Source: a virus. From it: DNA of 28,112 nt. The notes under the pieces were generated by a model. That model saw nothing but the letters and a program-made list of their open reading frames with translations, was not told the DNA's origin and did not search any database. The stretch is from IMG/VR virus record IMGVR_UViG_3300044634_000357, positions 1-28,112 of that record; one strand, 5' to 3'. Both the position numbers and the translations under genes were made by a program. Positions 3,784 through 23,461 of the stretch are shown here, one piece after another; the first letter of the stretch is position 1, and each line of letters begins with the position of its first letter.

Positions 3784-3811
3784 TATTAAACACCTCCCGA
3801 TGTTGTTTCTG

Positions 3812-3830: not shown

Positions 3831-3841
3831 TCGCGCCCGCC

Positions 3842-3871: not shown

Positions 3872-3884
3872 AACGGGCTACCTA

Positions 3885-4061: not shown

Positions 4062-4336
4062 TTGCCGCCACCTTCAGGAAGTGAAACCTGACTACGTAGG
4101 AACTCTGCGCCAACCTTGGTAAATTCTTCGCTGTTTGAAGTGAAGAACCCGCGGAAATTGCACTCACCGCAGCCCACCAGGACGGCAGCCCGCAGCAAAG
4201 CAAGCGAAAGGGAGGGGTAAATTTCCTCCCACTCGTTCGCGACATAATCGCCGCAAATAAGGCCGAAGCCCTCCCCCGTGTCGTAAATTGTGACCCTGAC
4301 ACTCTCGGCGTAGTCGAAACTAATTTCGTGTCTCAT
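4058..4336 (-). CDS. hypothetical protein of leftward operon
   Basis: A 92-residue protein, MRHEISFDYAESVRVTIYDTGEGFGLICGDYV..., that I do not recognise. The first half looks like a small beta sheet. The second has a hydrophobic helix with cysteines (LSLALLRAAVLVGCGECNFRGFF), which could be buried or could bind metal. Two adjacent starts are possible, GTG 4339 and ATG 4336. The upstream AAGGGGGG is better spaced from the ATG, and the TGATG junction with the upstream stop supports coupling. The stop overlaps the small membrane-protein gene. Confidence 0.65.
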   Translation of the reverse strand: MRHEISFDYAESVRVTIYDTGEGFGLICGDYVANEWEEIYPSLSLALLRAAVLVGCGECNFRGFFTSNSEEFTKVGAEFLRSQVSLPEGGGK

Positions 4337-4869: not shown

Positions 4870-4892
4870 TTTTACCCTCTTTCATGTTTGAA

Positions 4893-4933
4893 CAGGTACA
4901 CCGCTGCACCTGTGAAGGTGAGACTATCTCACC
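4893..4933 (-). other. two hairpins before the 177-residue gene
   Basis: CAGGT (4893-4897) pairs with ACCTG (4908-4912), and GGTGAGA (4917-4923) pairs perfectly with TCTCACC (4927-4933) around a three-base loop. Read leftward, both lie 24 to 64 bases upstream of the GTG start at 4869. They do not cover its ribosome-binding site. A stability or regulatory role is inference. Confidence 0.4.
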
Positions 4934-4939
4934 ACTCGC

Positions 4940-4988
4940 GCCCGTGTCAACCTATGACGGTTGCACCCCCGAACGGGGCAACACGGGC
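4940..4988 (-). other. three-way-junction RNA-like structure
   Basis: An outer stem GCCCGTGT/ACACGGGC (4940-4947 with 4981-4988) encloses two hairpins, CAACC/GGTTG (4948-4952 with 4959-4963) and CCCC/GGGG (about 4967-4970 with 4975-4978). It lies directly after the stop of the 93-residue gene in the leftward transcript. It could be a processing, termination or regulatory element. It lacks a T run and the features of a tRNA. Confidence 0.4.
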
Positions 4989-4993
4989 AACCG

Positions 4994-5275
4994 CTAACTC
5001 TGCGGGACTAACGTCGTAAATTTCGTGCTGTTGGTTTTCTTGTCAAACTTGACCGCCGAAATAAAACGGAGACCGCATGAAGCCTCGTACCATTCGTGGA
5101 GTTTGTCGGCCATCTCGGAAGGCGTACCGCTGAAGGTTTCCCATCCGTTCTCGGTGAAGTAGTCGGCCTCGTGTTTGTCCGTGGCTATGTATATCTTGTG
5201 GCACTCGTCAAACCCGATGAGTTTCGCCTTCTCGGTGTACTTGTAGACCTTTTGCCATGCGTCCATTGTGTCCAT
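4994..5275 (-). CDS. hypothetical protein, first gene of leftward operon
   Basis: A 93-residue protein, MDTMDAWQKVYKYTEKAKLIGFDECHKIYIATDKHEADYF..., with alternating helix and strand segments. The phrase 'IGFDECHKIYIATDKHEADYFTENGWE' suggests a small alpha/beta fold. No catalytic motif stands out and I do not recognise the family. It is the promoter-proximal gene of the leftward operon, with AAAGGGGT five to six bases before the ATG at 5275 and a stem-loop in its leader. Its position suggests early expression, so host-takeover or regulatory functions are possible but unproved. Confidence 0.7.
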   Translation of the reverse strand: MDTMDAWQKVYKYTEKAKLIGFDECHKIYIATDKHEADYFTENGWETFSGTPSEMADKLHEWYEASCGLRFISAVKFDKKTNSTKFTTLVPQS

Positions 5276-5297
5276 GTTTTACCCCTTTATGTGTAAG

Positions 5298-5313
5298 CCC
5301 GCACCGCTGCGGG
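5298..5313 (-). promoter_or_regulatory. leader stem-loop of leftward operon
   Basis: CCCGCA (5298-5303) pairs with TGCGGG (5308-5313) around a four-base loop. It lies between the leftward promoter and the first ribosome-binding site, near the expected 5' end of the transcript. It may protect the mRNA end; no T run follows, so attenuation is less likely. Confidence 0.45.
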
Positions 5314-5329
5314 ACTGATTGACACACTC

Positions 5330-5358
5330 AATATATAGACACAGCAGCACAATGTCAA
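5330..5358 (-). promoter_or_regulatory. strong sigma70-type promoter, leftward
   Basis: On the minus strand TTGACA (5358-5353) is followed after exactly 17 bases by TATATT (5335-5330). This is a consensus -35, an optimal spacer and a near-consensus -10. Transcription would begin near 5323 and read the eight leftward genes. A perfect -35 suggests recognition by unmodified host RNA polymerase, as expected for early genes. Confidence 0.75.
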
Positions 5359-5448
5359 GCCACACGGCGAGAATATATCAGCCACAACTAGAACAGATAC
5401 ACCCCGCCTGGAGTGTCACGAAACGAGATAGGCGGCACTCATGCATTG

Positions 5449-5478
5449 TTACTCATTGGTAACTTACCCGTCGGTAAC
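5449..5478. repeat. 15-bp imperfect tandem repeat with internal dyads
   Basis: Two abutting units, TTACTCATTGGTAAC (5449-5463) and TTACCCGTCGGTAAC (5464-5478), share the ends TTAC and GGTAAC. Each is itself a TTAC...GTAA inverted repeat. Such paired dyads about 90 bp upstream of the leftward promoter look like a repressor operator or origin iterons. Confidence 0.45.
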
Positions 5479-5500
5479 AAGCTCAACACAGGGGGTAGTG

Positions 5501-5545
5501 GGTCAACTACTCTCAGTAGTCGTCACTCTCCGTAGTTAACTGACC
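5501..5545. repeat. imperfect inverted repeat with inner hairpin
   Basis: GGTCAACTAC (5501-5510) is the complement of GTAGTT plus GACC (5532-5537 and 5542-5545) with a four-base insertion. Inside, ACTAC/GTAGT (5506-5510 with 5516-5520) gives an alternative hairpin. It lies in the gene-free control region. Confidence 0.4.
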
Positions 5546-6070
5546 ACAAACTCCAGGACGAACGGGTGTTCGGTCAAATCGCGGGGTGGGGGTGTGCCGA
5601 GGCGCGTGGGGGTATAGATATATATAATGCTGTCTCCCGATATGTGGTTTTGTGACCACTCTGGGTGGTGGGGTGTGTGGCTCTGGAGGTAGTTCGGGGA
5701 AAATCTCACCCGTGTTTTTTTGACCGCGGTGGGTGGTCGATGCTGCTCCACCTTGGGAGGAGGGTTTGACCTTTGGGGTGGTTGGGGATATTCACATACG
5801 TGTGTGTATGTCTCTACCAGTGACTAAAGAATGTTTGTTGCTCCCCCCACGGTTCGCTCTTAGAGAGCAGGTCGCCGTAGCTAGTTTCTTTTAGCCGACA
5901 CCTTGCAACGATTTGTTTACCCCTGCGAGGATCGCGTGTGCGGCTCTTTTGACATATAGGGGTCGATCCCCGTTTCCGGTCACGTTTCGCGTTCCCACCC
6001 TGCTGTCACTGTTTTGTGGGGTCTAGCGCATGGTTGCCTGGTGTCTCCCGACATTCAGGGCTTGATGAAG
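5546..6070. other. gene-free control region, repeat and hairpin rich
   Basis: I find no convincing gene here on either strand. The stretch is rich in G runs, with an AT-rich island (TATATATAAT around 5619-5628). There are three alternating complementary blocks GTGGT/ACCAC/GTGGT (5644-5669), consecutive hairpins GCTCT/AGAGC (5856-5868) and GCTA/TAGC nested with GTCG/CGAC (5871-5899), and GGGG/CCCC around 5958-5971. It lies between divergent transcription units and next to the terminase gene, where phages often keep operators, an origin, or the packaging (cos/pac) site. Which of these applies cannot be read from sequence alone. Confidence 0.45.
5766..5811 (+). promoter_or_regulatory. possible rightward promoter with palindrome
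   Basis: TTGACC (5766-5771), a 17-base spacer, then TATTCA (5789-5794) give a moderate sigma70-type match. A perfect palindrome, ACATAC-GTGTGT-GTATGT (5794-5811), starts at the last base of the -10 and covers the expected start site, as an operator would. No gene follows for 500 bases, so a long leader to the terminase gene would be needed. Confidence 0.35.
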
Positions 6071-6226
6071 TTAGTTTGAGTGTAGCACACCTTTTTGTTT
6101 TTTGGTGGCCCAACGTTCTGCTTGTTTTTGTGCGTTGCGGAGGAGTGCTTCGTCTGAGAGTGGGCGGGCTGGTTTTAGTTCTTTGCGGCGCATGATGCGT
6201 CCTGATGTTCCTAATTGTTTGCCCAT
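6071..6226 (-). CDS. possible 51-residue basic protein
   Basis: A short minus-strand frame encoding MGKQLGTSGRIMRRKELKPARPLSDEALLRNAQKQAER... and ending KKQKGVLHSN. The composition (helical, lysine/arginine-rich, no rare residues) is protein-like. The opposite-strand frame is cysteine- and serine-rich and less convincing. There is no good ribosome-binding site before the ATG and no recognised family. It would be a lone leftward gene between the control region and the terminase. Treat as tentative. Confidence 0.35.
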   Translation of the reverse strand: MGKQLGTSGRIMRRKELKPARPLSDEALLRNAQKQAERWATKKQKGVLHSN

Positions 6227-6338
6227 GTTTCTGAGTGTATCAAGTGTTGGTGGGTGTGAGGAGGACCGGAGCCATCCAGTTCATTTAAGTGCTGTTGCTC
6301 TACGGCACACCCACCAACGGTGGTAGATTATCAGAACA
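6227..6338. other. short leader before terminase
   Basis: No gene is seen. A small hairpin, CCACC-AAC-GGTGG (6311-6323), ends 15 bases before the terminase ATG. No clear Shine-Dalgarno sequence precedes that ATG, and I find no promoter with good -10 and -35 boxes. Confidence 0.35.
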
Positions 6339-8737: not shown

Positions 8738-10501
8738 GTGCTTTCCACTGAAGAAATCGTAAAACTCTACGAACAACGCCGTAGAAATCAGGGTCCTGTT
8801 CAAGAGCAGATGCGTCGTGTACGCGATCTTGCCAACGGCGACGTAATTGTTCCATTGAATGAACTGGACAAGAACGCTAAATCTTCGGTAGCAAACCTGT
8901 TGGTACAGGGCTTGGATCAGATGTCTATGCGTGTGACATCAACAATGCCGTCACCATATTTCCCGCCAATCAAAGAAGGCTCGGAACGCTCTAAGTCGTC
9001 TGCCCGTATGCGGAAACGTGCGATGTTGTCCATTTGGGACCACAACCGTATGCAGATGAAGATGCGTCGTCGCGCACGACACCTACTTGGATACTCACAA
9101 TCCGCTGTTGTCATCAAACCTGACTTCAAAACTTTGATGCCTGTGTGGTCTGTACGCAACCCGCTAGACACTTTTGCTGCACCTGTAGATGATCCTGATG
9201 ATCCGCTACCACAGGACTGCATTTTCACGTATCGTGCTAGCGCAAGTTACCTACTACAGAACTATGGCGAACTTGTGTTGGGCAAACTGCGTTTAGGCAA
9301 AATTGCTGCCGACACCAAATACACGATGCTCGAATATGTTTCCCCAGAGTGCATCCAACTCATCGTGCTTGGCGCAGAGGACTCACCGAACCTAACCCCA
9401 GGTGAACGTGCAGGCATTGAAGCGATGATGCTTGAATACATCCCGAACCGTACAGGTATGCCATTAGCAATCGTTGCTAACCGTATTACCCTCGACAAGC
9501 CACGTGGACAGTTTGATGGTGTGATGGGAATGTATTACACCCGCGCACGACTACAAGCCTTAACCGAGATCGCTATTGAGCGCGGCATCTTCCCTGAAGA
9601 ATATCTGATCGCTCGACCAGGCGAAAACCCTGAAATTTTGCAGATCGCTGATGGTAAAGCCGGACAACTTGGTGTTGTTAAGGGTGGCGACATTCAACAG
9701 TTGCAACTTAACCCAGGTTACAAAACTGATACTGCTCTTGATCGTTTGGAACGACAGGAACGTTTAGAGGGTGCGATCCCTGCCGAGTTCGGTGGAGAGT
9801 CAGCATCCAACATTCGTACTGGTCGCCGTGGAGAATCCGTGTTGTCGGCAACCGTTGACTTCCGTGTGCAAGAAGCACAAGCAACGTTTGAACAATCCAT
9901 CCTTGAAGAAGATAAAATTGCTATCGCTATCGAGAAAGCGTATTGGGGCAACCAACAAAAGTCTTTCTTCTTTGGACGCAAATCATCTGTCGGAGAAGAA
10001 ACCTACACGCCAAACAAACTTTGGCAAACAGACTTCCACTATGTTGCATACTCGGCGGCAGGTTCCGATGTGAACTCGCTAATAGTTGGCCTCGGTCAAC
10101 GACTCGGAACAGGACTTATGTCCAAAGAATCCGCTCGCGAAGCCGACCCACTGATTAGCGACCCTGATTTAGAACATGACCGCATTATCGCTGAAGGAGT
10201 TGAAAGTGCTTTACTTACGAGTATTCAACAACAGGCTTCGGACCCTAATGGTCCGTATCAGCCAGAAGATTTGGCATATCTAACAAAGCTGGTTGTCGAG
10301 CAAGACGTACCGTTGTTTGATGCTGTGCGTCGCACCGATCAACGCGCCAAGGATCGTCAAGCAGCGACAGCCCCACAAGGCGCACCTGAAACAATGCCAG
10401 GACTGGCGATGCCAGGTATGGGTGGAGAAATGATGGGTGGTCCACCACCACAAGCAGGTCCACCACCAATGGATCAACTACTCGCACAACTAGGAGGGTA
10501 A
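8738..10501 (+). CDS. portal protein
   Basis: A 587-residue protein in the expected position after the terminase. The N-terminus (STEEIVKLYEQRRRNQGPVQEQMRRVRDLANGD) and the stretch SVRNPLDTFAAPVDDPDDPLPQD...YRASASYLLQNYG fit actinobacterial phage portals, where a 'P..tFP..D..d' segment is typical. Helical segments around residues 325-400 (QLNPGYKTDTALDRLERQER...) would form the channel stem. The last 50 residues are low-complexity Pro/Gly/Met (PGLAMPGMGGEMMGGPPPQ), an unusual tail probably exposed inside the capsid or mobile. GTG start at 8738 with AGTAGG upstream. The dodecameric portal seats the terminase and later joins the tail. Confidence 0.85.
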   Translation: MLSTEEIVKLYEQRRRNQGPVQEQMRRVRDLANGDVIVPLNELDKNAKSSVANLLVQGLDQMSMRVTSTMPSPYFPPIKEGSERSKSSARMRKRAMLSIWDHNRMQMKMRRRARHLLGYSQSAVVIKPDFKTLMPVWSVRNPLDTFAAPVDDPDDPLPQDCIFTYRASASYLLQNYGELVLGKLRLGKIAADTKYTMLEYVSPECIQLIVLGAEDSPNLTPGERAGIEAMMLEYIPNRTGMPLAIVANRITLDKPRGQFDGVMGMYYTRARLQALTEIAIERGIFPEEYLIARPGENPEILQIADGKAGQLGVVKGGDIQQLQLNPGYKTDTALDRLERQERLEGAIPAEFGGESASNIRTGRRGESVLSATVDFRVQEAQATFEQSILEEDKIAIAIEKAYWGNQQKSFFFGRKSSVGEETYTPNKLWQTDFHYVAYSAAGSDVNSLIVGLGQRLGTGLMSKESAREADPLISDPDLEHDRIIAEGVESALLTSIQQQASDPNGPYQPEDLAYLTKLVVEQDVPLFDAVRRTDQRAKDRQAATAPQGAPETMPGLAMPGMGGEMMGGPPPQAGPPPMDQLLAQLGG

Positions 10502-10867
10502 GTGAGCGACATTCAAGCAGGAACAAACCGTGTAGCGATCCAAGCTGCAACGGGTCAAACCTACGGTAAAGCAACAGAGCAACGCAACGCTCAACGCGCT
10601 GTACCTATGGGAACACCACCAACGGAAGCACCACAAGTACAACGCCCTGTGCCTGGCACTTTGGGTTCGTTGACTCGACCAACGGAACGACCAATGGAAC
10701 CTATTACTGCTGGCGCACCATTTGGTGCAGGTCCAGGTCCAGTCGGTGCAGGTATCCCACAACCTACGGGTGATAGTGCGTTAGAGGAACTGAAAGCGAT
10801 CTATCAGGCGTATCCGAATGATGATCTTGCAGATTTGATTGATTCTTACAGCCGTGATGGTTTGTAA
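10502..10867 (+). CDS. proline-rich, mostly disordered protein
   Basis: A 121-residue protein with an extended Pro/Gly/Thr-rich stretch (residues 35-90: GTPPTEAPQVQRPVPG..., GAPFGAGPGPVGAG) and one predicted helix at the end (ALEELKAIYQAYPNDDLADLIDSY). GTG start directly after the portal stop, with GGAGGG just upstream; the stop overlaps the next ATG (TAATG). The disordered body plus C-terminal helix suggests an adaptor that docks on another virion protein, but no family is recognised. Its composition continues that of the portal tail. Confidence 0.65.
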   Translation: MSDIQAGTNRVAIQAATGQTYGKATEQRNAQRAVPMGTPPTEAPQVQRPVPGTLGSLTRPTERPMEPITAGAPFGAGPGPVGAGIPQPTGDSALEELKAIYQAYPNDDLADLIDSYSRDGL

Positions 10868-13800
10868 TGACACAAGGCTGGTTTGATGCTCTAAGTGAGC
10901 AAAAGTTTTTTGACCAATATCAGGCTAACGAAGCAGCCAATACCCGATACAAGGCTGGTGCTACACCTGAGATTTCTGCGCGTGTAGGACAGATTTATAG
11001 TCAGTCACCTTGGATGACCCCAGGACAGGTGTTGGCTTTGGCTAAAGGTAATGCTTCGCCACAGGCTGTTGAGTTGGCTTCACAAGCACAAGCGAAACGT
11101 GTGCCTGCGTTACTAAACCCGAACAAATCTGACGATAAGGGTTTCTTTGAGCGAAACATTTTTGACAAGGTTAAAGAAACTACACGTTGGTCTTTCGCAG
11201 CATTAGACACCGTTAAGGATTTGTCACAGAACGTGGCATCACAAGTGTTTAACCCGAATGACCCTGCTGGTTTTGATGGCTGGTTCCAGTCAACTTCTTT
11301 GGGAACAATGCTGTCTGATTCTGAGCAAGCCGGTGAAGGTTACTTTCTCGGTGGAAAAGCAGCCGAGAAGCAGGCTGAACGTGCGCGTCGAGTTCGTGGA
11401 ACTATCAACGGTTCAGCATGGACGATCGGGCGTGGTGCAGCAAGTTTGGTGTTTACTCCAGGTTCAAAGGGATATAACATTGCATCAGGTTTGCTAGATG
11501 CTGTTGTGGCTGTTGGTTCTGACCCAACATTTTTGGGCGGTAAAGTTTATGCAGGGTCTAAAGGTTTTAGTTCTTTAGCGGAACTGAAGTCTGCTCAGGC
11601 GGCGATTCAGGGCGTTCGTTCGGCAGAGGAATTGTCTGCGGTACAGAAACTTCTTAAAGCAACTGCCCGCGCTGATGCTGGTTTGACTGATGCCGAATCT
11701 TTGGTTGTAGACAGCTCCAAGTTCCTAAAGTTTTGGCAGACTGATGCTCGCGCTCGACGACTTGTATCCAATCTTGGTGATCCAGCGAACAACGATGCGT
11801 TCAGTATTTTCCGTGACACGTTTAACGGGAAAATAGATATACCTACCGCACAAAAATTGGCTGCCGCTAAAAGTGAAAACGAAGTATTAAGCATTATCGC
11901 TGATGTAACAAACCGTTTAGACGACGCTAATCCGAACTTGTTGCCAACAGACATTCGTGCTTTGCCTGGTGCAAGACGCGGTGCATACATTAAGCAACGC
12001 TCACCTCTTTACAACTCGTTTAGGCATAACAGGTTATTTACCACGATGCCAGAACAGGTCGTTGTCGCTGGAACAGACGCAGATAACGCTAAGGCGGTGT
12101 TGAACTATGGTCGATTGTTGGACACTATTGGCACAGGAAAAGTTGGCGTTGCGTTCAGCCAAACCACTGAAGGTCGAACCCTGCTGAACAAGATCATGGA
12201 TGCTTACGCTAGTGGTGCAGCCGCAAGCATTAAACAAGTTGATGAAGTTTTTGATGAGACTGTAAAGGTTCTGTTGAGGCGAGAAGGTGCTTCCGAAGAA
12301 CAAATAACCAATTTGTTTGCAAAAGTAAAGCAAGCTGGTGACGACACCCGCGCATATTTTGTTGACGCTGCTGGACGACCTGAAGATGGTGGATTTTTAC
12401 AAGCGATGCTCCCAACAGGTCAAGTTGATATGACTGGTCTTGAAGACCTCAGCCCTGAACAAATAAGCAAACTTAGACTTAATTCACCTGGGTCAGTTCT
12501 TGAACTAATGGACAGAACAAAAATCCTGCCTGATGTACGTGAAATTCGCCGTATTTCGGGCAACAGGATGATGAAACGTGCTTTGACCCGCAAGAGCGGA
12601 GAACAACGCGCTGCTATTGCTTATTCAGAGTATTTGCAGAACAAGATTTGGAAACCTCTGACGCTGGCTACTGGTGGTTACATCATGCGTAACATGGTTG
12701 ACGCACAGGTTCGTATTGCCACTATCGGTAAAGAAGGTTTCTTCAACCACCCGATCCGTTATATGCAGTGGGTTATGGCTCGTAAAGCCCCTGAGACTAT
12801 TACTGGCAGAAACTTTGACGAAATTATTAAGTCTGCGGTTGATGACCTTTCCGCGGGTGACAACACCGACCGATTCGTTGAGGTGATGACAGACGGTTTG
12901 AAGCGCAACCTAGAGGACCCGTTAGCAGTCCATGCCCATGCAATCAAGAACGGCGCATACGAGTTGGTTACAAAACAAGCAAATCGTGACCGTTGGTTTA
13001 CTGGATTGGGTGAAGAATTCAGACAACTATCCCAAGAAGGAGTAACGAACGCTTGGGCTAAAGGTATCCCAATCAATGAAATCATTGACTATCTGCGTAA
13101 TACCCCAAAGGGTTTAGACGCATTACGTCAGTTTGAAGCGTATCTGAAAACGGGTATGCAATATGTTGATGAAAATGGTTTTGCTCGGATTGTGAAAGTA
13201 AAAGAAGTTGACGACAATGTGCTGAAAGCTTGGATTGAAAAACTGGCTGGTAGCCGTGTTGAACTAAAAACTGGTGGCGACCCTGACCTCAAACTTGCTA
13301 TCGGTCATCGCCGTGTTCCGTTCGGGCCAACACAGTCCATTGACTCAAACAGTATTGCTTTAACCGACATTGTTGATGGACCTAGAGAACTTGGTCGTGG
13401 AACTGTGTTCCGCGCAGGTGTAGACGCTGATGGAAACGATATTTTCTATCTTGTTACTGACGCAAAAAATATTACCGGAACAAAATCTTCGGTTATCCCT
13501 GAGTTTGATGAGCCAGACCAACTTAGTCTTACAATCCGCCGTGTATCCAACAACGACATCATTGACACCCCTGAGGGTCGAGCAGAGTTCGCAGAGTTTG
13601 TGAAGTCCCGTAATGCTGCTTTAGAGGCTGATGGTTCTTTGCGTCAGTTGCCTAAAACAGTAAAGATTGCTCAACGTGGTATCGGTGTTCCTGATTCGGG
13701 TGCAGCGGCTAAAGCGTTGGATCGTTTCACAGACTGGTTCTTTGTTGGTGTATACGGCAAAGCATCACAGACTTTTGAAAAGTCGCCTGTGTTCAGACAG

Positions 13801-15504
13801 TTCTACTATGAGCAGGTTTCAAAGAACGTTGATTTGCTGTCCAAAGATGAGGCAGTAAAACTGTTGAAGTACATTGAGGACTCTGCCACGCGCAACGGGA
13901 TGTCTCCAGAGAACTATGTGGGTGGTAAAAAGACTCTTGCCCGTATCAATAAACTTGCTGAAACCGCATCAGGTGAAGGCACGATTAAGGAACTGGATGA
14001 CTTCGCGCAACTGGTGGCTTTGAACAGCACTAAAGAAGCCCTCTATAACGCTTCAAGCCGTAACAACCTTGAAGATATTATGCGTATCTTGATCCCGTTC
14101 GGTGTTGCATACCGTGAAGTCACAGGAACATACCTGCGTCTGCTTGCTGAGGACCCGACCCGTATCCGTAAAGCACAACTTATTTATTCAGGTGCAGAAA
14201 ACTTTGACCCCGACAATGACGGGCAAGGGTTCTTCTATAAAGACCCGACAACTGGTGAGAACGTGTTTAACTTCCCATTCTCAGGGGAACTGACCAAACT
14301 GCTGACAGGTGTTGAAGCCCCGCTACAGGGCGGTGTGAAGCGTCTGTCGCTAGGTTTGCAGGTAATCCCGTCACTTGGTCCAGTAGGGCAGATCGCAGCG
14401 TCAGAGCTGATCCCTGACTCACCGAAGTTTGACGATGTTGTTGGCATTTTGTTGCCGTATGGTCGAGGCTCATTCAACGCGATGCCTTCATGGGCAGGCA
14501 AGATTAAGTCTGCTTTGCGTGACGACCCATCAAAGTTGGAGTCCATTTACGCCAACACCTATGTGGACACTTTGCGGGCATTGTCGGCTTCGGGTGACTA
14601 TGACCTAGATGATGAGCAGTCCAAAGCAAACCTGATGGCTGACGCTAAATCCAAAGCAAAGGTGTTGACAGCGTTGCGTGGCTTTGCACAGTTCGTCGGA
14701 CCTACCGCCCCATCTCTTGAATATGTGGTGAAAACAAAATCTGGTGACGTGTATGCGTCTGCGATGGTTCAAGAGTTCTACCGTTTGCAGAACAACAACT
14801 ATGACACGGCTGTATCTGAGTTCATCAAACTGTTCGGTGATGACGCTGTGCTGTATTTGTCGTCTAAGAGTAAGTCTGTGGCTGGTGGTTTGGAAGCGTC
14901 TGAACAGTTCGGTGATTGGGAACGTGATAACGAAAATCTGTTGGAACAGTTCCCTAGCGTTGCAGGGTTCTTGGCTCCAGGTGGTGACGATTTCTCGTTT
15001 GAGGTTTGGGATCGCCAACTTCGCAAGGGTCGCCGTGAACGACTATCCGATGTGGACATTATCAAGCAGGCTCAATACCGTATGGGTTCAGCGATCTACC
15101 GTTCATACCGGACACAGGTTGGGGCATACCCGACAGCAGAGCAACGTGCGTGGCTAGGGAACATTCGCAAGGAAATTAACAAGCGTTATGCAGGTTTCCC
15201 TGTAACACCTGTGTTTACTGTTGGCGAGTTTGAGTCAAAGATGTCTGAACTGCGAACCATGATTCAGTTGCCACAGTTGGAAAACAACGGGGTTGCTAAA
15301 TCTATTGCAACCTATTTGGATTATCGAGACAAGGCAGTTCAACAGTATGTTTCGGCTGGTGGTGCAGAGGGCGGTTTTGATACTGCGAAGAAAGCGGAAC
15401 CTCTCCGTGACTACCTTGTTAGTATTGGTCAAGCACTAATCCAACAGAACCCTGATTTCGCAAGAATTTGGGATCGCGAACTATCATCTGAGGTAGACAA
15501 ATGA
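10867..15504 (+). CDS. very large (1545-residue) virion-associated protein
   Basis: The largest gene in the window, with no stop over 4.6 kb and codon use like its neighbours. It starts at the ATG overlapping the previous stop. Parts are glycine/alanine-rich and weakly hydrophobic, for example GSAWTIGRGAASLVF and SGLLDAVVAVGSDPTFLGG near residues 180-220. A mixed region around 590-640 (WKPLTLATGGYIMRNMVDAQ) and another near 1070-1180 (DIMRILIPFGVAYREVTGTY..., then LQVIPSLGPVGQIAASELIPD) look amphipathic. I do not recognise a catalytic domain. Size, position after the portal and amphipathic segments fit an internal virion or DNA-ejection protein of a podovirus-like particle, or a large polyvalent virion protein. 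A tape measure is less likely because it precedes the capsid gene and lacks long coiled coils. The functional call is inference. Confidence 0.8.
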   Translation: MTQGWFDALSEQKFFDQYQANEAANTRYKAGATPEISARVGQIYSQSPWMTPGQVLALAKGNASPQAVELASQAQAKRVPALLNPNKSDDKGFFERNIFDKVKETTRWSFAALDTVKDLSQNVASQVFNPNDPAGFDGWFQSTSLGTMLSDSEQAGEGYFLGGKAAEKQAERARRVRGTINGSAWTIGRGAASLVFTPGSKGYNIASGLLDAVVAVGSDPTFLGGKVYAGSKGFSSLAELKSAQAAIQGVRSAEELSAVQKLLKATARADAGLTDAESLVVDSSKFLKFWQTDARARRLVSNLGDPANNDAFSIFRDTFNGKIDIPTAQKLAAAKSENEVLSIIADVTNRLDDANPNLLPTDIRALPGARRGAYIKQRSPLYNSFRHNRLFTTMPEQVVVAGTDADNAKAVLNYGRLLDTIGTGKVGVAFSQTTEGRTLLNKIMDAYASGAAASIKQVDEVFDETVKVLLRREGASEEQITNLFAKVKQAGDDTRAYFVDAAGRPEDGGFLQAMLPTGQVDMTGLEDLSPEQISKLRLNSPGSVLELMDRTKILPDVREIRRISGNRMMKRALTRKSGEQRAAIAYSEYLQNKIWKPLTLATGGYIMRNMVDAQVRIATIGKEGFFNHPIRYMQWVMARKAPETITGRNFDEIIKSAVDDLSAGDNTDRFVEVMTDGLKRNLEDPLAVHAHAIKNGAYELVTKQANRDRWFTGLGEEFRQLSQEGVTNAWAKGIPINEIIDYLRNTPKGLDALRQFEAYLKTGMQYVDENGFARIVKVKEVDDNVLKAWIEKLAGSRVELKTGGDPDLKLAIGHRRVPFGPTQSIDSNSIALTDIVDGPRELGRGTVFRAGVDADGNDIFYLVTDAKNITGTKSSVIPEFDEPDQLSLTIRRVSNNDIIDTPEGRAEFAEFVKSRNAALEADGSLRQLPKTVKIAQRGIGVPDSGAAAKALDRFTDWFFVGVYGKASQTFEKSPVFRQFYYEQVSKNVDLLSKDEAVKLLKYIEDSATRNGMSPENYVGGKKTLARINKLAETASGEGTIKELDDFAQLVALNSTKEALYNASSRNNLEDIMRILIPFGVAYREVTGTYLRLLAEDPTRIRKAQLIYSGAENFDPDNDGQGFFYKDPTTGENVFNFPFSGELTKLLTGVEAPLQGGVKRLSLGLQVIPSLGPVGQIAASELIPDSPKFDDVVGILLPYGRGSFNAMPSWAGKIKSALRDDPSKLESIYANTYVDTLRALSASGDYDLDDEQSKANLMADAKSKAKVLTALRGFAQFVGPTAPSLEYVVKTKSGDVYASAMVQEFYRLQNNNYDTAVSEFIKLFGDDAVLYLSSKSKSVAGGLEASEQFGDWERDNENLLEQFPSVAGFLAPGGDDFSFEVWDRQLRKGRRERLSDVDIIKQAQYRMGSAIYRSYRTQVGAYPTAEQRAWLGNIRKEINKRYAGFPVTPVFTVGEFESKMSELRTMIQLPQLENNGVAKSIATYLDYRDKAVQQYVSAGGAEGGFDTAKKAEPLRDYLVSIGQALIQQNPDFARIWDRELSSEVDK

Positions 15505-16280
15505 GTAACGACCCGATACAGGACCAGATCAATGCTGGTGCTATGCCTGGTGTTGCGGGTAGTGCTGTCGGCCCTAGAGAGATTTCCGCACCCCCATCGG
15601 ATCAGTTTCAGGCATATCAGCAGGCTGAACCTGGTGCGTTCCAATATGTTCAAGAGGGTGGCATGGGGACACGTACAAGGACTGGTGGTGGGTCGCCTGT
15701 CCAGTCGGGTGCGATGTCCAAGTTGCTGTATTACGGGAACAACCTTGTAAACGAGCGTGGTCAGATTGAACGCAAACCGTATGATGCCCCTAAAGAAGCG
15801 TATGCAGAGTTAGCGAAACTGGCTACCGCAGATCGTATTGCTTTGCAAACAGAGTTGTATCAACGCAGGTTTTATCGTGGTAAGAGCAAACCTTCGACAA
15901 CAGGTTTTGATCCTGCTGATGTGGATGCGATGAAAGAGTTGTTGAATACCAGTAACGAGTACGGGTATAACTGGAAAACTTCGTTGAACTTTGTTCGTCA
16001 GGAGTTCCCTGCTTCGGGTTCGGGTTCGCGTGGGCCATCTAAGAAGGAGATTCGTAAGTCTTTGGATGAGCGAGCTGTTGAGGCTTTGGGTCGTAAGTTT
16101 ACGGACGTTGAGGTTGAATCGTTGATTGCTCAGGTTCAACAGAAATCTGCGGCTGGTGAGTCTGGTGGTTTGTCGATGATTAGCGAGGATGTGGTTTCTG
16201 GTGCTGCGACTGGTGAGCAGCAGGCTTACAGGTTTGCTCAGGTTGCCGATTTGTTTAACGATATGTTAAGGACTGCGTAA
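15501..16280 (+). CDS. virion-block protein of unknown function
   Basis: A 259-residue protein with a disordered, Gly/Pro/Gln-rich N-terminal 75 residues and an alpha-helical remainder (PKEAYAELAKLATADRIALQTELYQRRFYRG, then KKEIRKSLDERAVEALGRKFTDVEVESLIAQVQQKSA). The helical segment 'LG R.FTD.EV..LIA.VQ' recalls proteins that sit beside internal virion proteins in actinobacterial and aquatic phages. ATGA overlap with the 1545-residue gene and TAATG overlap with the next bind it into one translation unit. It may be part of the same internal complex; no enzyme motif is visible. Confidence 0.7.
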   Translation: MSNDPIQDQINAGAMPGVAGSAVGPREISAPPSDQFQAYQQAEPGAFQYVQEGGMGTRTRTGGGSPVQSGAMSKLLYYGNNLVNERGQIERKPYDAPKEAYAELAKLATADRIALQTELYQRRFYRGKSKPSTTGFDPADVDAMKELLNTSNEYGYNWKTSLNFVRQEFPASGSGSRGPSKKEIRKSLDERAVEALGRKFTDVEVESLIAQVQQKSAAGESGGLSMISEDVVSGAATGEQQAYRFAQVADLFNDMLRTA

Positions 16281-17740
16281 TGGCTGAAACTGATTACTCT
16301 AAATTAGATTTGATTGCTTTGGATAAGGTCATTTCTGACCTGACAGAGCAACGAAACGAAATCAACAAGAACATCAGTCGTGGTTATGCTTTTCAGTACA
16401 TTAAGGGAAGTCGCCAAAGGGTAGAGATACCACAGTTTTCCCCTCAGTATGAATCTTTTATTAGCCAAACAAAACAGTTGGATCAACAGATTCAAACTGC
16501 CACGACTTTTGCGAGGAACGCAGCAAGGGCGTACACCCCAATCGCAGGTCCTTCTAACAAAACTACTAAGAAAGAACAATCGTTAGCGACCAAATATGCC
16601 AATGCGAAAGTAATCGCTGTCCCTCCTGCGCCTTCACCTAGCCCTGCCAAGCCTGGGACAGTTCAAGATGTCATAACGTCGGCAACTGGAAAGAGTGCTA
16701 CCACTACTGCTTCTACGGCAACTGCTGGAACTCAAACCAATGTCCCTGCAACAACGACACCCAAAGTCACGACAACCCCTACCGGCACAACTGTCACAGC
16801 AAAAGGCAAAGCCAAGACCCCTGCCGTAACTCAACAGAACTGGGTTGACGCTCTACAAAAGTTCTTCCCGTCATACTCTGATGACTGGTTGGCTGCTAAC
16901 GCTGAAACATATTTCGGTAAAGACCTGATTGATTTGATGATTAAGGTTTCCGACCCTAAAGGTGTTTATGACCTCACCACATCGGCAGGGTTGGAGCGAA
17001 TCCAGCAGGAAATCCGTGGAACGAACTACTGGCAGACCACGATTTCTGCAACCAAAAACTTTGACCAACTCATTGACGCAGACAAACAGAACTTAATCAC
17101 ACAGACAAAGTCCCGTATCGCCAACACCTATGGCGACATTGGCTTGACTGAAGATGCTTTGAACCAGGTTGCAGCCACCGTCGCCCGTACTGGTCTTACT
17201 GGTTTGGGTGAGAAGCAGGCTGTTTACAACGTGGTGTTTAAGGCTGGTTCGCCACAGGCGCAGACTGGTCGAGCGTTAAGTGGCGTTGACGCTGACCGCA
17301 TCAAGCAACTTGGCAAGGCATACAACTTCAATGTTTCTGACAGCCAAATCCAATCCATCCTTACCGGCACACCTGAAGCATCTACTGGTCAAGTGCTGAC
17401 CGAGGAAGGTTTGCGTCAACGTTTGCAGAAGTATGTGAAGGGTGCGATGCCACAGATCGCAGATCAGATTGATGCTGGTTTGACGTTGGAAGATATTGGT
17501 GGAAACTATCGTCGTTATGCGGCACAGTTGTTGGAGCGTTCTGAGGATGAGATTGATATGTTCTCTGGTCCATATTTGAAGGCGTTTGGTACGAAAGAAT
17601 CGGGTCAGTTGTCTTTGTCTGATTGGATTTCTACGGTTAAGTCTGATCCGACTTTTGGTTGGCAGTATACGAAAACGGCTAATCAGCAGGCTACGGATAT
17701 TGGTTTGACTTTGGCTAGAGCATTTGGAAAGGTTGGCTGA
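16280..17740 (+). CDS. virion-block protein with coiled coil and Thr-rich linker
   Basis: A 486-residue protein in three parts. Residues 1-100 are a charged helical region (ALDKVISDLTEQRNEINKNI, then FISQTKQLDQQIQTATTFARNAARAY), probably a coiled coil. Residues 115-185 are a low-complexity Thr/Ala/Pro/Lys linker (SATGKSATTTASTATAG and similar). Residues 190-486 are a folded helical region (WVDALQKFFPSYSDDWLAANAETYFG...). The final part (LRQRLQKYVKGAMPQIADQIDAGLTLEDIGGNYRRYAAQLLE) has a pattern I recall from internal or neck-region proteins of aquatic phages. No catalytic residues stand out. Start and stop overlap the neighbours. Confidence 0.7.
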   Translation: MAETDYSKLDLIALDKVISDLTEQRNEINKNISRGYAFQYIKGSRQRVEIPQFSPQYESFISQTKQLDQQIQTATTFARNAARAYTPIAGPSNKTTKKEQSLATKYANAKVIAVPPAPSPSPAKPGTVQDVITSATGKSATTTASTATAGTQTNVPATTTPKVTTTPTGTTVTAKGKAKTPAVTQQNWVDALQKFFPSYSDDWLAANAETYFGKDLIDLMIKVSDPKGVYDLTTSAGLERIQQEIRGTNYWQTTISATKNFDQLIDADKQNLITQTKSRIANTYGDIGLTEDALNQVAATVARTGLTGLGEKQAVYNVVFKAGSPQAQTGRALSGVDADRIKQLGKAYNFNVSDSQIQSILTGTPEASTGQVLTEEGLRQRLQKYVKGAMPQIADQIDAGLTLEDIGGNYRRYAAQLLERSEDEIDMFSGPYLKAFGTKESGQLSLSDWISTVKSDPTFGWQYTKTANQQATDIGLTLARAFGKVG

Positions 17741-18774
17741 TGAGTGACATTTTTGGTATTCAGGAGCGCATCGCAAACCTGCCACAAACCCCAGGTGCAA
17801 GCCCTGTTGGTGGTGGTTCTGTAGTTACTCCTACCGAGCCGACGGAAACCGAAGTTGACCCTATTGCATTTCAAATGGAACAGGACCGTGAGTTTGCTCA
17901 ACAACAAATTGCTTTGCAAACAACGCAACGTAGGCAGGATGCCCGTTCGACGATGGCTGCGGTTCTTGCGACCTACGGTTTAGGTGATTTGGCTGACTTT
18001 GTTTATACCGAAATCATCGCTAAAGAAACCGTCAACATCAACAATCCTGATGCCGTGATCTTTGCTATCCGTGAACAGCCCGCATATCAGAAACGGTTTG
18101 CCGGTAACGCTGCACGTCTAAAGAAGGGCTTGTCTGAACTTGATCCAGCTTCATATATCGGTTTAGAAAACCAGTTCCGTCAAACCTTGCAATCCAACGG
18201 TTTGCCAGCAAACTTCTATGACCAGACAGATGACTTCAAAGCCTTTATCGAGGGTGACGTTTCCCCATCAGAACTAAACGAGCGTGTTCAGCAGGGTTAT
18301 CGTGCTGTCGCTGACGCTGACCCAGCGGTTAAAGAGCAGATGAAAAACCTGTACGGGGTGTCCGAAGGGCAGTTAGCTGCATACTTCCTTGACCCGCAAC
18401 GCACAGCCCCACTACTCACCCGCCAGGCACAGGCCGCCAATATCGCAGCCCGTGGCTTAGAGCAGGGTGGTATTCAGTTGACTGGTCAGTTCGCTGAGGA
18501 CCTGGCTCGACGAGGTATTACTGAACAGCAGGCTCGCGCAGGCTTCGCTGAAGTCGGCGGGTTAGGCGAACTAAAACAGACTTTCGCGGGTGAAACAGCA
18601 CTATCGGGTGAACAGTTGGCTGGTGCGGCGTTCGGGATTGATGTCGCCGCGCAACAAGAGTTGGAGCGTAAACGTCGTTTGCGTACAGGTGAGTTCGCTG
18701 GTGGCGGATCATTTGCTCGGACAACTGGTGAAACATCAGGCTCCATTTCTACTTCGGTAGGTAAAGCGCAATAG
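17740..18774 (+). CDS. virion-block protein of unknown function
   Basis: A 344-residue, mostly helical protein. After a disordered Pro/Thr start come QDARSTMAAVLATYGLGDLADFVYTEII, AIREQPAYQKRFAGNAARLKKGLSELDP and SYIGLENQFRQTLQSNGLPANFYDQTDDFKAFI. This succession (a helical plug, a 'RF.GN..R...GL' phrase, 'LE..FR..L...GLP..FYD') recurs in phage virion proteins, from memory. A long Ala/Gln-rich stretch follows (QAQAANIAARGLEQGGIQLT). The tail is Gly/Ser/Thr-rich. It ends the coupled run that began at 10502; a promoter follows directly. The function is unknown and a role in the internal complex is inference. Confidence 0.7.
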   Translation: MSDIFGIQERIANLPQTPGASPVGGGSVVTPTEPTETEVDPIAFQMEQDREFAQQQIALQTTQRRQDARSTMAAVLATYGLGDLADFVYTEIIAKETVNINNPDAVIFAIREQPAYQKRFAGNAARLKKGLSELDPASYIGLENQFRQTLQSNGLPANFYDQTDDFKAFIEGDVSPSELNERVQQGYRAVADADPAVKEQMKNLYGVSEGQLAAYFLDPQRTAPLLTRQAQAANIAARGLEQGGIQLTGQFAEDLARRGITEQQARAGFAEVGGLGELKQTFAGETALSGEQLAGAAFGIDVAAQQELERKRRLRTGEFAGGGSFARTTGETSGSISTSVGKAQ

Positions 18775-18779
18775 CATAC

Positions 18780-18810
18780 TTGACACTGTCAGGTGAAGTG
18801 TGTGTATACT
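18780..18810 (+). promoter_or_regulatory. promoter of the scaffold-capsid genes
   Basis: TTGACA (18780-18785) and TATACT (18805-18810) are strong boxes but 19 bases apart, two more than optimal. The -35 is embedded in TGACA-C-TGTCA (18781-18791), a short perfect dyad that could be an operator. It lies in the 150-base gap after the 344-residue gene and would boost expression of the scaffold and capsid. Confidence 0.55.
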
Positions 18811-19432: not shown

Positions 19433-20401
19433 ATGGCAATCACTCTTACGAGTAACCTGTCGACTGACCAGGCAGCATACGACCGTATTGCGTATTTCGC
19501 TTTGCGTTCGGAAATGTTGTTCGATCAGGCGGCAGACGTTCAAGCAACCAACCAGTCAATGCCTGGTTCCTCGGTGATCTTCACGATCTTCAGCGAACTT
19601 GCAGCAGCGACTTCAACCCTTGCAGAATCAACTGATCTCACCCCTGAAACTATGGGTGACAGTCAGGTGACTGTTTCTCTTGCAGAGTACGGCAACACCG
19701 TGAACACAACTGCTCGACTTCGTGGAACTTCGTTCTTGGATGTTGATGCAGCAGCAGCGAACCTTATCGGTTACAACGCTGGTGACTCATTGGATCAAGT
19801 TGTTCGTGAAGTTCTTGCTGGTGGAACCAACGTTGCATACGGTGGCGGTGGATCATCTGATCCTTCAAGCCGTGTAACGGTTGCAGCAGAAGACATCATT
19901 GAAGCCAACGACATCCGTAAGCAGACTGCTGCTCTACGTGCTGCAAACGTTGCAACCTTCAACGGTTACTACATGGGTTACATCCATCCTGACGTGTCAT
20001 ACGACTTGCGTCGTGAAACCGGCAACGCATCATGGAACGCACCTCACGTAGCGGTTGACACAGCAAACATCTACAACGGTGAGATCGGAACCTTTGAATC
20101 AGTACGATTCATTGAAACCCCTCGCGCCAAGGTGTTCACCAACGCATCAAACGGAACCAGCACAACTGGAACGATTGACGTGTATTGCACACACATCATG
20201 GGTCGTCAGGCGTTGGCTAAGGCTTACAGCCAGATTGACGGAAATGGTGTTGTACCGAAGATCGTTCGCGGTCCAGTGGTTGACTCGTTGATGCGTTTCA
20301 ATCCAATCGGTTGGTATTGGCTCGGCGGCTATGGCCGTTTCCGCGAAGCTTCGTTGCGTCGCATTGAGTCGTCATCCAGCATTGGTGCAAACGCAGCCTA
20401 A
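19433..20401 (+). CDS. major capsid protein, N4-gp56 family
   Basis: A 322-residue protein in the canonical place after the scaffold. The N-terminal run YDRIAYFALRSEMLFDQAADVQATNQSMPGSSVIF..., LAESTDLTPETM, then SLAEYGNTVNTTARLRG and IGYNAGDSLDQVVREVL matches the N4-gp56 (HK97-fold) major capsid family as I know it. Later parts (DIIEANDIRKQTAALRAANV, GYYMGYIHPDVSYDLR, MGRQALAKAYSQ) are family-like. The length is near the lower end for the family. A frame start at 19406 exists, but ATG 19433 has AAAGGAAAT at the right distance. The shell of the virion is built from it. Confidence 0.88.
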   Translation: MAITLTSNLSTDQAAYDRIAYFALRSEMLFDQAADVQATNQSMPGSSVIFTIFSELAAATSTLAESTDLTPETMGDSQVTVSLAEYGNTVNTTARLRGTSFLDVDAAAANLIGYNAGDSLDQVVREVLAGGTNVAYGGGGSSDPSSRVTVAAEDIIEANDIRKQTAALRAANVATFNGYYMGYIHPDVSYDLRRETGNASWNAPHVAVDTANIYNGEIGTFESVRFIETPRAKVFTNASNGTSTTGTIDVYCTHIMGRQALAKAYSQIDGNGVVPKIVRGPVVDSLMRFNPIGWYWLGGYGRFREASLRRIESSSSIGANAA

Positions 20402-20423: not shown

Positions 20424-20471
20424 CCACATTTGTGGGGTGGTCGAGTCCCCTCGCTCGGCTGCCCCACTTTT
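20424..20471 (+). terminator. terminator after capsid gene
   Basis: GTGGGG (20432-20437) pairs with CCCCAC (20462-20467), with a smaller CGAG/CTCG stem inside, and is followed by TTTT (20468-20471) and a T-rich stretch. An alternative hairpin, CCAC/GTGG (20424-20427 with 20432-20435), competes for the same bases. This would end or reduce capsid transcription before the fibre genes. Confidence 0.55.
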
Positions 20472-20492: not shown

Positions 20493-20819
20493 ATGCCAAC
20501 GTTTGTTCCTCCAACAGAAAATGCTGTTGTTTATGGTGATGCGTTGAAGCGTGGGATTGAGTGGCGTTTGTGGCGTTTTTATGCTCCGACGTTGCGTGGG
20601 AAGAACGTGTACCGGTTGCTTGATGGTTCTTTTGTTGAGGTTCAGCCGAGTGATATGTCTACGGTGAGTCGAGTGTTTTTTGGTGGTCACAGTAATTATG
20701 TGTCTGATGTTGAGGCTGATGCGCTGGTTGCTGCTGGTTATAGTGTGTCGTCTGGTGTGTTTGAGGTTGGTTCGTCTTATTCAAGTACCTTAGGGTCTGA
20801 TGCTGTTTTGGGAGTGTAA
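20493..20819 (+). CDS. conserved phage protein after capsid
   Basis: A 108-residue protein, MPTFVPPTENAVVYG..., with GKNVYRLLDGSFVEVQPSDM, FFGGHSNYVSDVEADALVAAGY and a Ser/Gly/Val tail. The 'NVY...DG....Q.......GGH.Y.V...EA..L.AAGY' order recalls a small structural protein common in actinobacterial phages. Function unknown; a fibre or connector attachment is possible from position. The frame is open upstream to 20430, but ATG 20493 lies beyond the terminator and starts a normal N-terminus. No Shine-Dalgarno sequence is seen. The stop overlaps the fibre start (TAATG). Confidence 0.7.
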   Translation: MPTFVPPTENAVVYGDALKRGIEWRLWRFYAPTLRGKNVYRLLDGSFVEVQPSDMSTVSRVFFGGHSNYVSDVEADALVAAGYSVSSGVFEVGSSYSSTLGSDAVLGV

Positions 20820-23461
20820 TGCCACAGTTTAAGAAGTTCACGGCGGAAACTGTTGAAGTTTCTGAGATGAATGATTATCTTGCGTCGCAGGTTGTTGGTA
20901 CGTTTGATTCGGATTCAGCTCGTAATACTTATTTTGGTTCGGCTGGTGCGTTTACTTTGGTTGAGGGCATGGTCACGTATTTGAAGGATACGGGCGAGTT
21001 CCAGGTGTATAAGTCAACAGGGTGGACCACGATTGGTGCTACTGGTTCTACGGGTGCTACGGGGGCTACAGGCGCGTCTGGTGCGACTGGCGCTACAGGT
21101 GCGACGGGTCCGACTGGTGCGGCTGCTTCTATTTCTTTGGGTTCGGTTACGACTGGTTTGCCTGGGTCTGATGTTGCTGTTACGAATAGTGGTTCTTCGT
21201 CTGCGGCTGTTTTCAATTTTGCTATTCCTCGCGGGTTGACTGGTCCTGCTGGTACGGCTGGTTCTAATGGGGCTACTGGTGCTACTGGTGCGACTGGTGC
21301 TGAGGGTCCGCGTGGTGATGCTGCGACGATAAATGTTGGGACGGTTACTACTGGTTTGCCTGGTAGTTCGGTTTCTGTTACGAATGTTGGTAATACGACG
21401 GATGCGGTTTTTAATTTTGCTATTCCTCAGGGTGCTACGGGGGCGACTGGTGCTACGGGGGCGACAGGGGCTACGGGTGCTACTGGTCCTTCGGGTTCGG
21501 GTTCGGGTGATGCGTTGGTTGGTTCGACGAACACGTTTACTACTAACCAGATTATTTCTGGTTCTACTACGGCAGCGTTGTTGCGTATTACGCAGACTGG
21601 TACGGGTAATGCGTTGGTGGTTGAGGATTCGGCTAACCCTGACTCGACACCGTTTGTTATTGATGCGAACGGAAACCAGTTGCTTGGTACAACTGCGTTG
21701 CGAAGTGTAGGTGGCAGTTTCCAGACCTCCATAGCAGGACAGATTTTTAATGAGCAAAGTGATACAACTGGTTTAACGGCTTACACCTCTGTTCTGAACA
21801 GGAACGATTCAAATGCTCACCGTTTTGTTTTGGGTAGAACTAGAGGGTCTGTTGCTGGTGCTGTAACCACACTTACAAATAATGATGGTATTGCTCAGTT
21901 GATGTTTGCTGGTGCTGATGGCACAACTGTTGACCCTGTTGCAGCACAGATTATAGTAAACGTTGATGGCACTGTTTCTACTGGTGTTGTTCCGGGTCGT
22001 ATTACTTTTCAAACCGCTTCGTCTGCTGGAACTTTGACGGAGCGTATGCGTATTGATTCCGCTGGTCAGGTCGGTATCGGTTCATTAACTGCTGCTGGTT
22101 ACGGAATTCTTGCTGGCAAAAATATTACTGGTGCAGTTGCCAGTTATGGAATGGTTATTCAGGGTGCGATTCAATCTGATGTAACATCACAGTCAGCAAC
22201 ATTTGTTTCTGGAGTAAATACTGCTGCTGCATCATTTACTCTTGCAACACTTTTGCATTTTTCTGCTTCAGGTGTTTCAACTGCTGGTGCTGGTTCAACA
22301 ATCACCAACCAAGTAGGTTTTAGAGCAACAAGTTCCATGACAGGTGGAACCAATAACTGGGGCTTCCATGGCGCAATTCCTTCTGGAACAGGTCGTTTCA
22401 ATTTATATATGAATGGTACCGCAGACAACTATTTGGCTGGTCGACTTGGTGTTGGAGCATTAAATACAAGCGGTGCTATGGCGCAAATCACAAACACCAC
22501 AGCAGCAGATGCAATTTTGGTTGCCAAAGGTGCAGCAGGACAAAGCGGAGATTATTTCCAACTAAAAAATTCCGCTGGAGTATTAAATGTTTTTTCTGTT
22601 AACGCAAACGGAAATACAAACATTCAGGGAAACCTTGAAATTGGAGTAAACAAAACTGTAGATGGTGACGTTTATGTTGATTTGATAGGTGATACAACAT
22701 ATACAGATTATGGTTTGCGTATCCTCAGGGCTTCTGGAGCAAATGGAAATAGTGCTATTTATCATCGTGGAACTGGTGGTGTTTACCTAGTTGCACAAGA
22801 CGCTGGTGTAGTTGCGTTCAACACAAACAACACCGAGCGTATGCGTATTGACTCCGCTGGTGCGGTTGGTATCGGTGGCGTTCCAGTCGCAGGACGAGGT
22901 TTAGTAATCTCCAAAACACACACTGGTTCAACTACCAGCATCGGCGTATTAGCAAGCGGAATAGTCCAATCGGACGTTACTCTTGATGCTATTTATTATC
23001 GTGCTGTTGCCTCAACCGCAGCCGCAGCATTTACGGTTACAGCCTTGACACTGTTTGATGCTGTGGGTGTCACTACACCTGGCGCTGGTTCAACAATTAG
23101 TACACAAACTGGTTTCCGTGTCACATCAAACATGACTGGCGCAACCAACAACTACGGTTTCCTTAGCGATATTGCTGCCGCAACTGGTCGCTGGAACTTT
23201 TTTGCCAATGGTACAGCGGCGAACTATATGGCAGGTCGTTTGGGTGTCGGAGCAACCTTAACCACGGGTGCGATGGTACAAATTGTTAATACAACAGCAG
23301 CAGATGACGCGCTCCTAATCAAAGGCGCAGCATCCCAAACTGGGTATCTAACAGAATGGCAAAACAGTGCTAGCACCCTGCTAGCGTATGTAGCCGCAGA
23401 CGGAAGTTCTTCATTCTATGAAGGCGACCAAAACATATTGGCAGCAAACATATTCTCATAA
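20819..23461 (+). CDS. collagen-repeat tail fibre protein
   Basis: An 880-residue fibre. Residues 1-75 form an attachment domain (KKFTAETVEVSEMNDYLASQVVGT..., YLKDTGEFQVYKSTGWTTIG). Three blocks of Gly-X-Y collagen-like repeats (mostly GAT) follow, separated by two copies of a 43-residue module around 'VTTGLPGS...VTN.G......FNFAIP.G'. A serine/glycine hinge (GSGSG) precedes an adhesin-like region with two copies of a long module beginning TERMRIDSAG (DNA at 22040 and 22835). Collagen repeats trimerise fibres and tips bind host receptors. There is no peptidase or chaperone domain. Codon endings shift from T-rich to A/C-rich inside the gene, suggesting mosaic origin. Confidence 0.85.
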   Translation: MPQFKKFTAETVEVSEMNDYLASQVVGTFDSDSARNTYFGSAGAFTLVEGMVTYLKDTGEFQVYKSTGWTTIGATGSTGATGATGASGATGATGATGPTGAAASISLGSVTTGLPGSDVAVTNSGSSSAAVFNFAIPRGLTGPAGTAGSNGATGATGATGAEGPRGDAATINVGTVTTGLPGSSVSVTNVGNTTDAVFNFAIPQGATGATGATGATGATGATGPSGSGSGDALVGSTNTFTTNQIISGSTTAALLRITQTGTGNALVVEDSANPDSTPFVIDANGNQLLGTTALRSVGGSFQTSIAGQIFNEQSDTTGLTAYTSVLNRNDSNAHRFVLGRTRGSVAGAVTTLTNNDGIAQLMFAGADGTTVDPVAAQIIVNVDGTVSTGVVPGRITFQTASSAGTLTERMRIDSAGQVGIGSLTAAGYGILAGKNITGAVASYGMVIQGAIQSDVTSQSATFVSGVNTAAASFTLATLLHFSASGVSTAGAGSTITNQVGFRATSSMTGGTNNWGFHGAIPSGTGRFNLYMNGTADNYLAGRLGVGALNTSGAMAQITNTTAADAILVAKGAAGQSGDYFQLKNSAGVLNVFSVNANGNTNIQGNLEIGVNKTVDGDVYVDLIGDTTYTDYGLRILRASGANGNSAIYHRGTGGVYLVAQDAGVVAFNTNNTERMRIDSAGAVGIGGVPVAGRGLVISKTHTGSTTSIGVLASGIVQSDVTLDAIYYRAVASTAAAAFTVTALTLFDAVGVTTPGAGSTISTQTGFRVTSNMTGATNNYGFLSDIAAATGRWNFFANGTAANYMAGRLGVGATLTTGAMVQIVNTTAADDALLIKGAASQTGYLTEWQNSASTLLAYVAADGSSSFYEGDQNILAANIFS
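21030..21510 (+). repeat. collagen Gly-X-Y repeat blocks with paired module
   Basis: Repeated nine-base GGT-GCT-ACT-like units encode GAT triplets in three blocks (about 21033-21120, 21237-21318 and 21429-21502). Between them lie two copies of the 43-residue LPGS module. DNA-level similarity makes this a likely site of recombination and length change. Confidence 0.8.
22040..23410 (+). repeat. tandem duplication of fibre adhesin module
   Basis: Two in-frame copies about 795 bases apart share an almost identical opening (GAGCGTATGCGTATTGA...) and later matching segments: SDVT, AGSTI..Q.GFR.TS.MTG.TNN.GF, ATGRWN/GTGRFN, GRLGVGA, NTTAAD. The two copies have diverged in sequence and the spacer between them is unique. 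Confidence 0.75.

Follow-up and report, generated by a model that had tools for sequence, protein, structure and literature searches.

A five-gene block between portal and scaffold genes joins uncultivated phages to Streptomyces podoviruses and probably encodes an internal ejection module

The 28,112-base virus record from IMG/VR analysed here (the window) carries a block of five genes at 10502-18774, with the portal gene on one side and the scaffold and capsid genes on the other. Sequence comparison indicates that this block is an old, invariant gene set common to the window phage, its uncultivated relatives and short-tailed Streptomyces phages of the Beephvirinae. It probably encodes an internal-virion module, dedicated to ejection and wall penetration, of a podovirus lineage that joins many uncultivated phages to the Beephvirinae. 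With slightly less than even confidence, the module can further be regarded as an ejection machine that is not related to the T7, P22 and N4 machines. It would centre on a core protein of 1500-2260 aa and an anchor for swappable wall enzymes, would serve podoviruses whose hosts are Gram-positive actinobacteria and would be abundant among uncultivated phages. Such a machine would contradict the view that systems of this kind serve Gram-negative hosts; according to a review, ejection proteins are typical of podoviruses that infect Gram-negatives, and phi29-like phages of Gram-positive hosts lack them (PMC8954989).

The five ORFs are real genes. The preliminary description of the window had placed five overlapping genes of 121, 1545, 259, 486 and 344 residues (g121, the giant, g259, g486 and g344) from portal to scaffold, and its coordinates are exact (Table 1). 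Neighbouring ORFs overlap by 1-4 bases, and g121 starts with a GTG codon one base past the portal stop (10501). Shine-Dalgarno-like sequences precede g121 (AGGAGGG), g259, g486 and g344; the giant has little such sequence and looks translationally coupled. The chance of a 1545-codon open frame is ~5e-35 at the base composition of the window, and all five genes are under purifying selection, with dN/dS of 0.077-0.36 against relatives with ~90% identical giants (0.059-0.088 for the portal gene, for comparison). Downstream, the scaffold start at ATG 18925, with AGAAGGAG, is preferred over TTG 18835 and yields the 151 aa seen in many relatives, and the capsid start is better placed at 19433, in agreement with relatives. 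The terminase large subunit is also encoded in the window (phrog_38, E 3.7e-63).

Table 1. Features of the five-gene block and its boundaries in the window
Feature	Coordinates	Strand	Matches and distribution
Portal protein, 587 aa, upstream boundary	8738..10501	+	phrog_104, E 1.5e-20
g121, small, Pro/Gly-rich	10502..10867	+	phrog_8200 (unknown function), E 5e-24; Beephvirinae homologues; 83/83 spanning loci
Giant, 1545 aa	10867..15504	+	homologous to FlowerPower gp9 and WRightOn gp10
g259, low-complexity N-terminus	15501..16280	+	77/83 spanning loci; Beephvirinae counterpart phrog_13037, 270-290 aa
g486	16280..17740	+	phrog_34303, E 4e-59; phrog_6654, E 3e-14; PHROG functions unknown
g344	17740..18774	+	phrog_8424 (unknown function), E 5e-72
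Promoter-like element	18780..18810	+	conserved between relatives
Scaffold-position gene, 151 aa	18925..19380	+	phrog_7813 (unnamed family), E 1.5e-33
Major capsid protein, 322-331 aa, downstream boundary	19433..20401	+	PF13252, E 5.5e-54; phrog_1357, E 6e-81

The block is separated from the scaffold and capsid genes by the promoter-like element TTGACA-N19-TATACT, which a stricter promoter scan (16-18 nt spacer) missed. Its spacer is an inverted repeat with compensatory changes across lineages (ACACTTG/CAAGTGT, ACACGCT/AGCGTGT and ACACACC/GGTGTGT). Judged by these sequence patterns, the element and its repeat are likely a regulated capsid promoter or operator.

Far from being a peculiarity of this phage, the block recurs in the same order across a broad group. 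Scans of IMG/VR returned 77 loci with g344, 235 with the giant (80 kept) and 45 with the Beephvirinae giant. Loci holding both portal and capsid, found through block proteins, number 96, of which 83 are distinct, and the order portal-g121-giant-g259-g486-g344-scaffold-capsid is kept in all 83 and reaches the Beephvirinae. Four members (g121, the giant, g486 and g344) are present in every one of these loci, and g259 is detected in 77. Because the loci had been found through block proteins, the search was repeated from the capsid protein without presupposing the block (246 relatives, 80 kept). In this second set all relatives whose upstream sequence exceeds 2.5 kb carry g344 except the distant locus L273, and the rest of the block is found as far as the contigs reach. 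In L273 (L273:1-11000) the same place is taken by a giant (2143 aa or longer) together with two other proteins and a scaffold gene, and the protein just before the scaffold, in the position of g344, carries a PG_binding_1 domain (E 1.6e-9). This protein has only a weak kinship with g344 (E 4.5e-4, obtained in a small set; hhalign not significant), and we therefore count it as equivalent in position alone. When g344 was searched against the proteins of phage records, the hits were 29 Streptomyces phage records and the unannotated ct2KA10; the giant alone had no match in such a search. Profile searches of genome contigs with a smaller alignment recovered two contigs only, one of 8.3 kb from an Acidimicrobiales MAG and a phage-sized one of 45 kb from a Streptomyces assembly. 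In relatives, the block genes are annotated almost only as hypothetical.

The named phages closest to this arrangement are the Beephvirinae (Streptomyces cluster BF: FlowerPower, WRightOn, Manuel and Abafar), which encode homologous proteins in the same order from portal to scaffold and capsid. In FlowerPower and WRightOn this interval holds small genes followed by proteins of 1635-1644 aa, 271-280 aa, 433-435 aa (a ‘peptidase’), 430-433 aa (a ‘glycosylase’) and 370-387 aa, a tRNA array and the scaffold-position gene. Iterated profile searches connect these proteins to g121 (E 1e-22), the giant (N part 3e-32, C part 3e-158), g486 (which matches both Beephvirinae copies, E 6e-69 and 6e-75) and g344 (E 1e-95), and g259 is joined as well. 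The two giants also align by profile-profile comparison (hhalign, 98.2%, E 3e-14, 472 columns), and the model of the giant matches a Manuel protein in Foldseek (E 1e-13). The window phage had been described as podovirus-like, and its capsid, portal, g121, giant, g486, g344 and one tail gene are indeed homologous to those of TEM-verified Streptomyces podoviruses. Abafar and Destructrice are podoviruses by TEM with tails of 16 nm (PMC11536984; PMC13097060), as are FlowerPower and others by TEM (PMC9753666). By gene content and order, the window carries a Beephvirinae-type module. The Beephvirinae differ in having additional small genes behind the portal gene, a tRNA array that occupies the gap between g344 and scaffold, and a pair of g486 paralogues that bear NlpC/P60 and SLT domains, whereas the window and its near relatives have a single g486 with neither hydrolase. 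This single copy, with no hydrolase detected, makes the block of the window a sister variant of the Beephvirinae module.

The g486 family offers the clearest view of function. In the window protein the N-terminal half is variable and of low complexity, and a C-terminal module (~residues 178-486) is conserved. In the Beephvirinae the family is duplicated, and hydrolase N-termini are fused to this same C-terminal module: NlpC/P60 in FlowerPower gp11 (residues 17-125, E 1.7e-29) and SLT, a transglycosylase, in gp12 (residues 8-95, E 3.6e-5). Inspection of the sequences reveals the expected catalytic motifs, DCSG and DHVG for NlpC/P60 and ESGGNY for SLT. In searches with the gp11 and gp12 N-termini, 25 g486-family proteins proved to carry the peptidase domain and 22 the SLT domain, counts that include some loci that are one phage twice; all belong to the Beephvirinae group, and the searches found neither domain in the group of the window. 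Among 79 diverse g486 members Pfam detected no other convincing enzyme, the one LPD7 match (E 0.001) being near chance, and the g486 of the window has no detectable enzyme. From these comparisons, the enzyme may have been lost or replaced in the lineage of the window, or have diverged too far to be seen. A fixed gene set occurs with wall-degrading enzymes in Streptomyces podoviruses and without visible ones in hundreds of uncultivated relatives. The earlier verdict that the block has no recognisable function fails for its family, as relatives carry NlpC/P60 and SLT domains.

Since two Beephvirinae homologues carry wall-cutting enzymes, the block proteins probably form a machine that takes DNA through the wall. 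The internal or ejection role that had been suggested becomes probable with the fixed position from portal to scaffold and the wall hydrolases on g486 homologues, to which the PG_binding_1 domain in L273 can be added. Counted against it are the lack of similarity to T7, P22 and N4, the absence of a predicted membrane helix and the absence of a detected hydrolase in the block of the window lineage. We infer packaging inside the head, ejection and a role for each protein as follows. The five proteins would be made at low level from the portal transcript, scaffold and capsid being expressed from their own promoter, and would come together at the inner surface of the portal, either earlier than the scaffold or along with it. 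They would then precede the DNA out of the particle by way of the portal and short tail, the giant and g344 serving as core or conduit. The C-terminal module of g486 would anchor interchangeable N-terminal domains: for the Beephvirinae these would be peptidase and transglycosylase domains with which to open the peptidoglycan, and for the window protein a region of no recognised kind. The part of linkers or assembly factors may fall to g121 and g259. The C-terminus of the window portal is of low complexity (Pro/Gly/Met-rich), and a long helical barrel is not obvious from its sequence. This is in weak agreement with the portals of core-stack phages, which have no C-terminal barrel (PMC8954989). 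A literature search on the virion proteins of the group found no published virion proteomics or cryo-EM for any block-family member; FlowerPower, Manuel and Abafar are in culture, so the ejection hypothesis is directly testable.

Wall hydrolases occur on external tail tips too, and tail-tip proteins commonly carry NlpC/P60 and SLT domains. The block could accordingly build a short tail and tip outside the portal, its hydrolases serving as tip lysins in the manner of phi29 gp13. Among the PHROGs that FlowerPower gp11 matches are minor tail and tail-lysin families, by way of its NlpC domain, and the downstream tail gene of 619-642 aa has no recognised tube B relative, both of which would suit a tail complex. 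We consider this unlikely, given that the block lies between portal and scaffold, apart from the tail genes, which come after the capsid gene (the fibre at 20819, the tail gene at 27237 and the 619-aa gene of relatives), that the block proteins of the window match no tail family and that 8 kb of genes is much for a tail of 16 nm.

The exact, fixed place between portal and scaffold would equally suit head-assembly factors, a set for portal/scaffold nucleation or head completion that is needed in assembly and not ejected, and minor head genes provide a precedent there. In SPP1, gp7 (MuF) is encoded directly after the portal and before the scaffold, and proteins of this type are portal-associated with a role at ejection; they comprise one or two genes as opposed to five, and Pfam found no MuF domain in the window proteins, the 79 g486-family members or 28 giant-family members. 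Many other phages carry such a minor head gene in this interval. An assembly set is rather improbable: assembly inside the cell does not readily account for the peptidoglycan hydrolases and the peptidoglycan-binding domain seen on family members or positional equivalents, and assembly factors are seldom as large as the giant. The block had also been described as an insertion at a point where, in most phages, the scaffold directly follows the portal. Bacillus Pagevirus (Pascal, Page), which has a related capsid protein (25% identity), is organised in this way, with portal, scaffold-position gene and capsid directly adjacent; as a general statement the claim is too strong, the block being fixed across its clade. 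Pagevirus also has a 1672-aa gene beside an NlpC-like protein, but this gene sits immediately upstream of the holin, and no homology to the giant was detected.

The proposed internal ejection module resembles T7 gp16 and K1E gp35, ejection proteins with wall hydrolases (PMC8954989), by gene set and hydrolases, and by this analogy may work alike. The T7 gp14-gp15-gp16 core/ejectosome and P22 gp7/gp16/gp20 are likewise clustered, with one very large member and, in some members, a hydrolase domain on one component (PMC8954989). Homology to known tail or ejection proteins, which would have refuted the suggested new machine, was sought and none was found: block members match no known ejection, tail or polyvalent family, and profile searches of PDB sequences with the giant, g486, g344 and g259 gave no credible match, be it to ejection proteins of T7, P22 or N4 or to others. 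Nor did fold searches with g344 and giant residues 560-1545 reveal similarity to T7 or P22, and no membrane helix is predicted in any of the five proteins by a crude method (Kyte-Doolittle 19-residue maxima <=1.32). Some membrane helices are present in T7 gp14 and gp16, and the T7 ejection set lies after the tail genes. On account of the missing similarity, the different gene place and the lack of membrane helices, the block is not a member of the T7/P22 type; its Beephvirinae relatives, unlike T7 and P22, infect a Gram-positive host. Ejectosomal podoviruses have been recognised by a tube B protein with candidate ejection genes next in line (PMC10386132). In relatives of the window phage the 619-aa tail gene has no PDB match and only an unnamed PHROG, and the ejection candidates of the block precede the tail genes.

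Structure prediction, which the preliminary description had recommended, was confident for g344 and moderate for the giant, and neither model matches a fold in the PDB. The well-conserved g344 (AF2, pLDDT 86.9) is compact and all-alpha with disordered N- and C-termini, in line with the helical bodies proposed earlier; the giant bears this out only in part, since its model of residues 560-1545 (pLDDT 74.8, pTM 0.45) is helical with a beta-rich region at ~765-935. The giant has no match of its own in Pfam, PHROG, NCBIfam or PDB. Its great size, a variable N-terminal half (1503-2264 aa in total among relatives) and the beta-rich insert would be compatible with an injected effector, a polyvalent-type protein acting in the cytoplasm in defence or host takeover and not on the envelope. 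This is very improbable: Pfam scans of 28 diverse giants detected neither an enzyme nor an LPD domain, PF18857 (LPD38) was not found in a search that was silent on controls too, and the best conserved part of the protein is its C-terminal third. Of the small members, g121 is probably largely disordered around a conserved core (YG..RPTERP.EPITAGA.FGAGP), and g259 is the least conserved of the block and has no match among PHROGs. In one sublineage (L072:1308-8102 and L065:1579-8094), giants of 2171-2264 aa with a long N-terminal extension, matched by no Pfam family, accompany a short g486 of 274-334 aa. Movement of a domain between the two proteins, whose lengths vary inversely, was considered and dropped, as direct comparison of the extra parts showed no similarity.

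Several other features of the window lie outside the block. Tandem genes at 1-879 and 1070-1915 match the PAPS reductase PHROG phrog_424 (E 1.5e-30 and 1.8e-45), a doubled auxiliary metabolic gene. The ~4 kb at 2375-6300 hold only small, mostly leftward ORFs, with the GC skew partly reversed, and one relative (L207) has small leftward genes in the corresponding place. Just past the capsid gene, a strong terminator-like hairpin at 20432-20467 (15 pairs, 9 G-C) overlaps the nominal start of the next ORF. Further on, an 880-aa protein with collagen repeats (20819-23461; PF01391, E 5.8e-9) is probably a tail fibre, and a GT4-type glycosyltransferase is encoded within the tail region at 25539-26663.
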